NCBI GenBank assembly: GCA_030265585.1
Contig: JAJDGJ010000007.1
Coordinates: forward strand, 1-47,292
From: Erysipelotrichaceae bacterium OttesenSCG-928-M19
Lineage (GTDB): Bacteria; Bacillota_I; Bacilli_A; JAJDGJ01
Direction of reading: 5' to 3'
DNA: 47,292 bases
The notes below the pieces were generated by a model. That model was not told where the DNA came from. It worked only from the letters and a program-made list of their open reading frames with translations, and did not search any database. Position 1 is the first letter of the stretch; every line of letters begins with the position of its first letter. Shown one piece after another: positions 38,773 to 44,222 of this stretch. A program made the position numbers and the translations under genes.

Positions 38773-41143
<2,371 letters not shown>

Positions 41144-41147
<4 letters not shown>

Positions 41148-42175
41148 TCTTTTTCACCTCTTTTTTCATCAAATAATTGCGTTATTTTATCGGATGCATA
41201 ATCTAATAAACGAATTACTTTGTCATAATTCATTCTCGTTGGTCCAATAATAGCAATTACTCCTTTTTCATCATCAGAAACCTGATAATTTGAAGTTACA
41301 ATTGTAACATCATCATCAATAAAGTATTCATTTTCATGACCAATAATTACTTTATTTCCATCAATGTTTTTAGCAAGTGTTTCAAAGAAATCATAGTCTT
41401 CAATAACATTTACTAAAGAACGAATCTTTTCAATATCATCAAAATCAGGTTGATTGATAATATTATTTCTACCACCAACATACACATGGTCAGAGGCAAA
41501 TTTAATAAAAGCATTTACAAAAGCATCTAAAAGATTCTCATAGTTTGATACATGTTTTCCTAATTCATCTTTAATTTCATCATCAATTTTTTTAACAACA
41601 TCTCCTAGTTTTGTTCCGACTAGCATTTTGTTTAAAACATTTACACATTTCTTTAATTCGTTTAGATCAATATCATTTTCTATATTGAATATTTTTGATT
41701 CAACTTTACCTGAGCTGGTAACAATTACAATAACTACCGAAGTTGTTGAAACAGGAATAATTTCAACTTTAGATAAAACCTCATCTTTACTTTCTGCTCC
41801 TAAAGCTATCGAAGTATAATTAGTCATTGAAGCAATCAAATCACATGTTTGTTTGACAATTTCCTCAATTTCTAATTTACGATTATTAAAAAGTTCTTCT
41901 AATTTTTCTTTAAGTCCTGCATCGATATCCTGATCATCAATCAAATAATCAACATAGTAACGATATCCTTGATTAGAAGGAATACGTCCTGATGAAGTAT
42001 GAGTCTTCTCTAATAATCCTAAAGTTTCTAAAGTTGCCATTTCGTTTCTAATTGTCGCGCTAGAATATGGTAGTTCATGATTAGCTTTTAATGTTTTAGA
42101 ACCAACTGGCATCGCATCATTAATAAAGTCATCAATAATTACTTTTAAAATATCAATCTGACGAGATGTTAACAT
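41144..42175 (-). CDS. hrcA: Heat-inducible transcription repressor HrcA
   Basis: A 343-residue HrcA with the N-terminal winged helix (LTSRQIDILKVIIDDFINDA, PVGSKTLKANHELPYSSATIRNEMA in sequence) and the dimerisation/inserted domains ending in GVIAIIGPTRMNYDKVIRLLDY. It binds the CIRCE operators just upstream and represses the chaperone operon until heat or misfolded proteins occupy GroEL. First gene of the operon; GGGGTG upstream of ATG. Confidence 0.97.
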
Positions 42176-42188
42176 GGTATCACCCCTT

Positions 42189-42215
42189 TTAGCACTCTAT
42201 CTATCTCAATGCTAA
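42189..42215. promoter_or_regulatory. CIRCE operator, promoter-downstream copy
   Basis: TTAGCACTC, 9 bases, CAATGCTAA. The first arm is the perfect consensus, the second has two changes from GAGTGCTAA. It lies between the -10 box and the hrcA ATG. Confidence 0.9.
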
Positions 42216-42219
42216 TACG

Positions 42220-42248
42220 ATTATACAATACCGTTTTAGCAATGTCAA
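42220..42248 (-). promoter_or_regulatory. Promoter of the hrcA-grpE-dnaK-dnaJ operon
   Basis: Minus strand TTGACA (42243-42248), 17-base spacer, TATAAT (42220-42225): full sigma-A consensus, framed by two CIRCE elements. Confidence 0.95.
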
Positions 42249-42262
42249 TAAGTGAGTGCTAG
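42236..42262. promoter_or_regulatory. CIRCE operator, -35 overlapping copy
   Basis: TTAGCAATG, 9 bases, GAGTGCTAG. It covers the -35 box. One arm has two changes and the other one change from the CIRCE consensus. Confidence 0.88.
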
Positions 42263-42328
42263 TATACACATTATATTAATATCTTTTTTTAAACACTTAA
42301 ATATGATAAAATAAGCATGGTGATATTG

Positions 42329-43147
42329 ATGAAATATTATGTTTATAATCCCTTAACAAGAAATCAAACAGGAAAAGAAGCCATTAAAAAATTAAATAAA
42401 AATGATATTTATGATTGTACTAATAAAAATGAAATGAAAGAACTAGAAAAGTTATTACAAAAAGACGATATAATTTATGTTATTGGTGGCGATGGCACAA
42501 TACATTATTTAATCAATAATTATAACTTCCTTTTTAAGCATAAAATTCTTTTTTATAAAAATGGTAGTGGTAATGATTTTCATCGTTCCCTAAAAGATAG
42601 TAACGCTTACTACTATACAATCAATAATAAGTATAGTTTTATTAATAGTTTTGGACTTGGCTTTGATGCCTTAGTTTGTAAAAAGGTTAACCAAGAAAAA
42701 AATAAAACTAAATTATCATATTTAAAGCAATGTTATTTGTCATTAAAAGAATACCAACCAATTAACATTGATATTCATTATCATAACAAATGGCATCATT
42801 ACAAGAATGTTTGGCTTTGTTCATTACAAAATGGTAAATATTTTGGTGGTGGCATTAATATTGCTAGAAATGCTGATGTCGCTAATGAGAAAATAGATTT
42901 ATGTATTGGACACAATCTAAGTACTTTAAAAGTCTTAATATTACTATTATTTGTGAAATTAGGTTTAACACATTTATTTAGTAATTATTTCTTCACAGTA
43001 AAAGTAAGTGACTTAATAATCAAAAATCAAGACTCACTACTATGTCAATTTGATGGTGATACTTTTACTATTAATAATGATTTAGAAATAACTAATTGCC
43101 AAAAAATAAAAATAAATAAAGTAAATTCATTAGAAAATAATGATTAG
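42329..43147 (+). CDS. Diacylglycerol/lipid kinase family protein
   Basis: A 272-residue DAGK-catalytic-domain protein. The nucleotide motif IGGDGTIHYL near residue 50, the second motif NGSGNDFHRSL near 76 (GTGND type) and SFGLGFDALV near 105 are present. The C-terminal half has the usual beta-sandwich with GGGINIARNA and LCQFDGDTF. It probably phosphorylates diacylglycerol or a related lipid at the membrane. Start at ATG 42329, six bases after GGTG, rather than the ATG at 42317 that overlaps this RBS. It is divergent from hrcA, with no strong -35/-10 pair found. Confidence 0.85.
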   Translation: MKYYVYNPLTRNQTGKEAIKKLNKNDIYDCTNKNEMKELEKLLQKDDIIYVIGGDGTIHYLINNYNFLFKHKILFYKNGSGNDFHRSLKDSNAYYYTINNKYSFINSFGLGFDALVCKKVNQEKNKTKLSYLKQCYLSLKEYQPINIDIHYHNKWHHYKNVWLCSLQNGKYFGGGINIARNADVANEKIDLCIGHNLSTLKVLILLLFVKLGLTHLFSNYFFTVKVSDLIIKNQDSLLCQFDGDTFTINNDLEITNCQKIKINKVNSLENND

Positions 43148-43189: not shown

Positions 43190-43220
43190 TGATTAGGAAT
43201 TTAAAAAAGGAGCTGAAAAA

Positions 43221-44222
43221 ATGGCAAAAAAGAACGAGGAAGAAATTGTAAAAGAAGATATGAAGGAAGAAACAAAAAGCAAAGCAAAGAAAGCTAGTAA
43301 AACAACTACTAAAAAGACTAGTTCAGCTAAGACTGGTGAAAAGAAAGCTAGTTCAACAAAAGCCGCTACTAAAAAAACAAGCACAAAAAAAGCAGCTGAT
43401 AAAAAGACTACTACTGCTAAGAAAACTAAAGATGATAAAGATGCAATCGTAGCTGAAGAAAAGAAAACTCCTACAAAAGCTGATAAAAAAGCTGAAGTAG
43501 CTGAAGAAAAGAAAGAATTAGTTAAAGATAATGAAGAAATCAAAGCAGAAAAGCCAGTTGCAATGAACACTGAAACTAAAGAGACCGTTGAATTAGATAG
43601 TAATAATAAAGAAAAAACTAATCAATTATTTATTTGGTTTGGATTACTAGCAGTTGTTATTGCTGCAATGTTTGGTGTTAATCATTTTTTCCCAAATGAT
43701 TATCAATCACAAAGTTCAACACTAGATCAACAAGTTGATATGATGATGATGGGTGTTCAAATTGATGTCTCAGATGAAGAAAAAGATGGCACAGTTGCCA
43801 AAGGTGACATCATTGTTATTGACTATGTTGGTACAATGGATGGCAAAGAATTTGATGGTGGTTCGCAAACTGGAGCTCGTTCAAAAGTCGGTGAAGGTTT
43901 ATTTATTGATGGTTTTGAAGATTCAATTATCGGTAGTAAAAAAGGTGATACAGTAACCTCAGAAATTACTTTCCCAACTGATTATGCTTATACTGAATAT
44001 CAAGGAAAAAAAGCGACTTTTAAAATAACTATTAAAAATGTTTACAAAGCGGCCGAGATTAATGATGCAACTGTTGAAAAATATGTTAATCAATTAGTAG
44101 AAAGTGGTACTACTAGTGTGCAAGGCATTAAAACTGAAAAAGAATTAAGAGCATTCTTTAGTGAGTATATTCAATCGCAACAAGAACAGCAAAATGCTTA
44201 TACCACTGAAGAATCACAATAA
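43221..44222 (+). CDS. Membrane-anchored FKBP-type peptidyl-prolyl isomerase with Lys/Ala/Thr-rich tail
   Basis: A 333-residue protein. Residues 1-132 are low complexity: a Lys-rich tract (about 18-70) of KKAS, KKTS and KKTT repeats, similar to histone H1-like bacterial tails, followed by an acidic/basic mixed stretch. One membrane helix (about 136-155, FIWFGLLAVVIAAMFGV) follows. The extracytoplasmic FKBP domain (195-274) reads DIIVIDYVGTMDGKEFDGG and GEGLFIDGFEDSIIGSKKGD, closest to the trigger-factor FKBP type. A helical C-terminus ends the protein. The positive-inside rule puts the tail in the cytoplasm and the isomerase outside. It probably folds secreted proteins. The tail's role is unknown. 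Confidence 0.88.
   Translation: MAKKNEEEIVKEDMKEETKSKAKKASKTTTKKTSSAKTGEKKASSTKAATKKTSTKKAADKKTTTAKKTKDDKDAIVAEEKKTPTKADKKAEVAEEKKELVKDNEEIKAEKPVAMNTETKETVELDSNNKEKTNQLFIWFGLLAVVIAAMFGVNHFFPNDYQSQSSTLDQQVDMMMMGVQIDVSDEEKDGTVAKGDIIVIDYVGTMDGKEFDGGSQTGARSKVGEGLFIDGFEDSIIGSKKGDTVTSEITFPTDYAYTEYQGKKATFKITIKNVYKAAEINDATVEKYVNQLVESGTTSVQGIKTEKELRAFFSEYIQSQQEQQNAYTTEESQ

Follow-up and report, generated by a model that had tools for sequence, protein, structure and literature searches.

A membrane-anchored FKBP of trigger-factor descent, with a polycationic tail, near hrcA in an Erysipelotrichaceae bacterium

The extracytoplasmic foldases of Gram-positive bacteria are generally taken to encounter their client proteins once these have been exported. 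Those of the PrsA/parvulin type share a surface foldase role with the protein that we describe here, but have a different fold. Exported FKBPs are themselves already known: the available excerpt on Sli-FKBP of Streptomyces lividans (PMC6833217) describes an exported FKBP with a role in the folding of secreted proteins. The orthologs of our protein in a sister genus are lipoproteins of this general kind, whereas the protein itself has a transmembrane helix and a polycationic tail instead of the lipid. Trigger factor (TIGR00115) is homologous to it in the linker helix, the FKBP domain and the first segment of the arm, but our protein lacks the N-domain and most of the arm, and is membrane-anchored and (by prediction) extracytoplasmic. 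The trigger-factor descent argued for below concerns the present family alone, Sli-FKBP lying outside the comparison.

The closest working analogue is human FKBP11, the likeness being one of layout and not of descent. According to the excerpted report (PMC12804085), this is a transmembrane FKBP of the ER, with a lumenal FKBP domain and a positively charged cytosolic helix that is important for its binding to translocon-bound ribosomes and lies near uL22 and 28S rRNA H24; the catalytic site is buried in the complex, and the authors argue against isomerase action there. FKBP11 differs from our protein in its opposite orientation, in having a short helical basic segment rather than a long disordered tail, in not being of the trigger-factor type, and in that its ribosome binding is for our protein a proposal. 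Extended tails of insertion factors also bind ribosomes (Oxa1, where the tail is positive, and YidC2, in the part of PMC10572626 available), but these are multi-pass insertases whose tails are C-terminal and make helical contacts. In the open-licence literature we found no description of a membrane-anchored trigger-factor FKBP or of a polylysine-tailed foldase; this exported FKBP is set apart from the known ones by its anchor and by its polycationic tail.

The window, that is, the whole stretch of 47,292 nucleotides that was analysed, comes from an assembly (G000) of 1.12 Mb in 76 contigs that is 62% complete, and the order is sampled by four genomes (G000 to G003) belonging to one family and two genera. 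The gene (43221..44222, +) encodes 333 amino acids, as judged from its ORF and from profile matches, and starts with an ATG that has a ribosome-binding site, AAGGAG, 8 bases ahead of it (43207..43212, +). The protein begins with a polycationic tract rich in K, T, A and S (about residues 17-70; 43269..43430, +), predicted from its composition and a pLDDT of about 30 to be disordered and cytoplasmic. Then come a linker of mixed charge (about residues 71-135; 43431..43625, +, from composition) and a single transmembrane helix (residues 136-154; 43626..43682, +, from hydropathy and the model). Beyond the membrane, a helix (residues 168-183; 43722..43769, +) corresponds, in the structure-hit alignment and the model, to the last part of the region that immediately precedes the FKBP in E. 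coli trigger factor. It is followed by the FKBP domain proper (residues 190-276; 43788..44048, +), placed by profiles and by an alignment in which the aromatic pocket positions are kept, and by a stub of the C-terminal (arm) domain of trigger factor (helices 282-294 and 306-332; 44049..44219, +), placed by the model and by a TIGR00115 match that runs to residue 328.

Residues 1-75 contain 25 K, 14 T, 11 A and 7 S (net +13, pI 10.0) and residues 76-134 are mixed (net -3), while the 19-mer of highest hydropathy is 136-154 (mean 2.29), the sole region above 1.2. The tract is far from the composition of its neighbours: among the 41 ATG ORFs of at least 120 amino acids within the window, the best 60-residue segment of this one is 87% K/A/T/S, and the next ORF reaches 45%. 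The AlphaFold2 model, built from this protein together with one trigger factor, has pLDDT below 50 over residues 1-165 (with a helix at 130-150) and, beyond the helix, a confident linker helix, FKBP domain and two C-terminal helices; the arm stub is mostly at 85-92, dropping at the extreme C-terminus. A sequence-only reading of this DNA had already seen a Lys/Ala/Thr/Ser tract, a mixed charged segment and one membrane helix, and composition and hydropathy agree with it; the tract that it put at about 70 residues is indeed present, with an extent here corrected to residues 17-70 or so, and it had missed that the FKBP is followed by roughly 55 residues with homology to the beginning of the arm. 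On sequence grounds we reject an untranslated tail, created by a wrongly chosen start site: the ATG that includes the tail has its AAGGAG at a distance of 8 bases, and a like site (GGAG) precedes the tail-bearing start of the ortholog in G001, the tail-bearing frame being open in both genomes.

The orientation in the membrane is suggested by two arguments. We infer that the FKBP domain lies outside and the tail inside because the sister-genus orthologs are lipoproteins and because the distribution of charge across the helix agrees: the 180 residues C-terminal of the helix have a net charge of -15 and a pI of 4.4, and the corresponding segment is also acidic in G001. This is the arrangement that had been proposed earlier from the letters alone, and the predicted layout (FKBP outside, one helix, basic cytosolic segment) would match that of FKBP11. 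We are highly confident of the architecture (tail, helix, trigger-factor FKBP) and of this topology.

The claim that the FKBP domain is closest to that of trigger factor was borne out by four kinds of analysis. FKBP_C (PF00254) is matched at 47.9 bits (cut-off 21.1), and the three other orthologs likewise exceed this cut-off; it is the only Pfam domain found in the protein, with no match to Rotamase or to the ribosome-binding N-domain of trigger factor (PF05697). TIGR00115 matches residues 185-328 at 105.1 bits, which is below its cut-off of 180.2 because the remainder of trigger factor is absent. The best matches among solved structures are all trigger factors, about 30 bits or more above other FKBPs, and trigger factors also head the Foldseek ranking obtained with the model, in which the PDB entry holding FKBP11 comes at rank 11. 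Finally, in a tree of 53 rows, the four anchored proteins form one clade (100/98), split two and two by genus, and the three canonical trigger factors of the family stand apart from it (99/100). In the alignment with E. coli trigger factor, the four orthologs retain an aromatic residue ahead of the first conserved G and an F ahead of the GG pair, together with the IxxF stretch and the late F; these hydrophobic and aromatic positions are presumably those that line the FKBP active-site pocket, and the protein may well be an active prolyl isomerase. Taken at the level of sequence, the four-member family is an additional, exported derivative of trigger factor, made of its linker helix, its FKBP domain and the start of arm 1.

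The anchored FKBP is not a replacement for trigger factor in G001, G002 and G003, the three near-complete genomes of the order, each of which has a separate full trigger factor with its N-domain; PF05697 has no match anywhere in the G000 assembly, 62% complete. A profile of the family, run against 395 genomes of the class, exceeds 290 bits in G000 to G003 only, the runner-up being a longer trigger-factor-like frame at 118 bits. A scan of public genomes, with patterns that reach close relatives only, matched a single trigger factor from Clostridia. Other families have second trigger-factor genes without the N-domain (L006:1387-2337, L066 and L084); they have no evident signal or helix, and we do not consider them to be of the same type.

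The gene is present in all four genomes of the order, and it is in the anchor that the two genera differ. The ortholog in G001 (same genus, 98% complete) has 366 amino acids and the same layout as ours. Those of the sister genus, in G002 and G003, are tail-less lipoproteins of 195 and 193 amino acids, whose signal sequences end in MIGC and LVGC (lipobox Cys21 and Cys20); cysteine is entirely absent from the G000 and G001 proteins, which excludes lipidation via a lipobox. The anchor therefore alternates between sister genera, a lipid in one, and a transmembrane helix with a polycation in the other. As to conservation of the tail in orthologs, the answer is a divided one: its composition is kept in G001, but G002 and G003 lack it (two of four genomes carry it), so the tail is a feature of the genus and not of the whole family. 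Loss of lipoprotein processing does not account for the change in G001, where lgt and lspA are found, as they are in G002 and G003 (neither was found in the 62% complete G000); since G001 keeps both, its missing lipid anchor is not due to loss of the enzymes. The lipid is probably the ancestral anchor, because it is the common one of such foldases, although two genera do not settle the polarity.

Nor does the FKBP substitute for a lost PrsA. A Rotamase-type exported foldase with a signal sequence occurs in all four genomes; the Rotamase_2 profile scan missed those of G000 and G001, which were recovered when the protein of G003 itself served as the query. In all four genomes the paired PrsA-like genes (L093, L094, L097 and L098) adjoin a gene for an unrelated membrane protein, which is small, has one helix and carries a short K/R-rich tail N-terminal of it.

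The genomic context is that of chaperones. Just upstream of the FKBP gene lies a YegS/DAGK-like lipid kinase gene (42317..43147, +), syntenic in all four loci (the Pfam match was obtained for the copy in the window only), and the pair lies near hrcA in all four genomes, with a transporter gene between hrcA and the pair in G003. The divergent neighbours in the window are hrcA-grpE-dnaK (38773..42175, -; names read from the sequences), and the same three ORFs are found in G001, so that grpE and dnaK follow hrcA in these two genomes. A scan for sites gave two CIRCE-like sequences, with 2 mismatches (42189..42215) and 3 mismatches (42236..42262), and a 12/12 sigma-70-type promoter facing hrcA lies between them, overlapping the second (42248-42220, -). 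Such paired sites stand beside hrcA in all four genomes, with a chance expectation of at most 0.01 per sequence. The gap between the DAGK-like and FKBP genes is about 70 bases in G000 and about 145 in G001; in G002 the start of the FKBP gene overlaps the 3' end of the DAGK-like one, and only a short distance separates them in G003. The weak promoter-like match in the gap of G000 is no better than chance in that scan. This chaperone neighbourhood fits a role in folding, but does not by itself prove co-regulation.

We propose the following scenario. The protein would be an exported prolyl isomerase, or foldase, built from the central part of trigger factor (its linker helix, its FKBP and the beginning of arm 1), which would sit at the outer membrane surface and aid the folding of exported proteins across the order. 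It would be held there by a lipid in the sister genus; in the present genus a single transmembrane helix would hold it, with a disordered polycation attached on the cytoplasmic side. This polycation, about 65 residues from the membrane, would bind the RNA of ribosomes docked at the Sec translocon, and the isomerase would thereby wait at the exit of the nascent chain: the proximity to the ribosome that was lost with the N-domain of trigger factor would be restored across the membrane by other means. The parts of this scenario are not equally secure. That the protein is a surface foldase is probable. That the main target of the tail is RNA, or the ribosome, is hypothetical, and we put it somewhat below an even chance; the explanation as a whole, a surface foldase with a tail that binds ribosomal RNA, is tentative to much the same degree. 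Rather unlikely, in our opinion, is its most specific form, an independently arisen bacterial counterpart of FKBP11 in which an exported fragment of trigger factor became linked to the ribosome through the membrane, gaining its tail as the lipid anchor was dropped. The coupling to ribosomes is a testable mechanism and a moderately surprising one.

The main rival, ahead of DNA and lipid, is that the tail is an extension of low complexity, inert or permissive, whose only use would be that of a spacer or of a strong positive-inside signal. A signal anchor would have replaced the lipobox, and slippage in an A-rich open frame would then have expanded a K/T/A repeat. The G001 tail (49 K, 35 T and 15 A in 153 residues; net +21) lends itself to this interpretation, as it consists largely of a 45-bp tandem repeat (5.8 copies, 94% matches), which is compatible with neutral growth. 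The tail lacks both a fold and a fixed sequence, is carried by two genomes only and is absent from the sister genus (points that also speak against a ribosome-binding role), and comparable tracts are borne by an SDR-like enzyme, among other unrelated proteins of the class. However, the two species both keep the K/T/A composition and the high net charge despite FKBP domains that are identical at only 43 of 87 residues, which argues that the tail is old in the genus; the tail of G000 is strongly charged with no detectable tandem repeat, and its tract is, as mentioned above, far outside the composition of the other ORFs in the window. The identities in the tail region of the two proteins (46/130) possibly reflect just this shared composition. 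On balance we regard an inert extension as possible but unlikely, and prefer a tail that would bind RNA or ribosomes.

The reason for preferring RNA or the ribosome as the target is the company that similar tails keep in the class, which is mostly that of ribosomal proteins, RpoD, regulators and one trigger factor. A strict motif, KK[TA]x[TA]KK[TA], searched at the DNA level, is present in 32 of 100 related genomes. We examined 30 of its loci, of which 21 have a motif ORF of at least 80 amino acids and 9 do not; two are the present FKBP family, and the other 19 tail-bearing ORFs, among the matches listed, include seven ribosomal proteins (uS2, two bL20, two uL22 and two uL5), one RpoD, two MarR/FabT-like regulators and one H1-like protein. 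The remaining eight have no evident nucleic-acid role, which speaks against RNA as the target; one is the SDR-like enzyme, and of the four membrane proteins among them one matches a SipW-like signal peptidase weakly, one is a PASTA protein and two are unknowns. Seven ribosomal proteins among 19 has a small binomial probability if 55 ribosomal genes in 1200-1800 are assumed, but the motif favours lysine-rich proteins, and we give this figure no weight. Ribosomal proteins are generally lysine-rich, so their share among the tail-bearing ORFs is biased. Outside this family, the canonical trigger factor of G080, from another family (L007:811-2337, -; 324 bits), has a long C-terminal K/T/A-rich tail, and two more (L071 and L074) have shorter ones; G080 also encodes the SipW-like signal peptidase with its K/T/A tail (L104:61-1542). 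K/T/A tails found on ribosomal proteins, RpoD, regulators and trigger factors are thus a recurrent add-on in the class, most often on ribosomal proteins. Disordered extensions are also described for ribosomal proteins of Mycoplasma, where their disruption affects fitness (PMC9534751, in the excerpt available).

Within G000 and G001 themselves the strict motif is confined to the tail of the FKBP (1/1 and 12/12 matches). A looser motif gave one match in G000, in the tail, and 15 in G001, of which 12 are in the tail; the other three lie in or near ordinary genes and do not represent tails. A genome-wide habit of such tails in these two species is thus unsupported by this narrow motif, although other basic tails may exist, as the short K/R-rich one of the membrane protein beside the PrsA-like genes illustrates. 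A stricter first pattern gave no match, and a search with the tail as query found only itself, missing even the tail of G001.

The tail had also been likened to histone H1, which holds for its composition but not at the level of profiles, none being matched above cut-off in G000 or G001: HC2 (PF07382) is not matched in G000 and reaches 39.1 bits in G001, just under its cut-off of 40. This H1/HC2-like composition, and the tracts of the H1-like protein and of the MarR/FabT-like regulators, are what would favour a tail that tethers the nucleoid to the membrane near secretion sites, one of the three targets (nucleoid, ribosomes, anionic lipid) that the sequence-only reading had offered. A surface foldase has no evident need to hold DNA, however, and the tail-bearing relatives are most often ribosomal, so that we find DNA an improbable target. 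Very doubtful, too, is a tail that binds anionic lipid on the inner leaflet and so concentrates the isomerase at SecYEG or within membrane domains rich in acidic lipid. In its favour, the polycation lies on the same protein next to a membrane helix, and a membrane-associated archaeal parvulin has been described with a discussion of its lysine-rich features (PMC4922055, in the text available), but about 65 residues of mixed or negative charge separate tract and helix, and the helix already anchors the protein.

If the tail does bind ribosomes, a foldase tied to them through the membrane would make extracellular folding in bacteria co-translational, as has been suggested for the ER in connection with FKBP11. 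In the sister genus, the lipoproteins encoded at the corresponding locus offer a natural tail-less control. The K/T/A tails on ribosomal proteins, RpoD and trigger factor across related Bacilli merit a separate study. In various Bacilli, uS2, bL20, uL22 and uL5 have a K/T/A-rich extension at one end (L102, L111, L124, L126, L127, L128 and L129), and the RpoD at L107:3-1622 (-) has a lysine-rich N-terminal extension of about 190 residues. In Clostridia, a long K/T-rich N-terminal tract precedes an unrelated domain at L002:10701-11960 (-).
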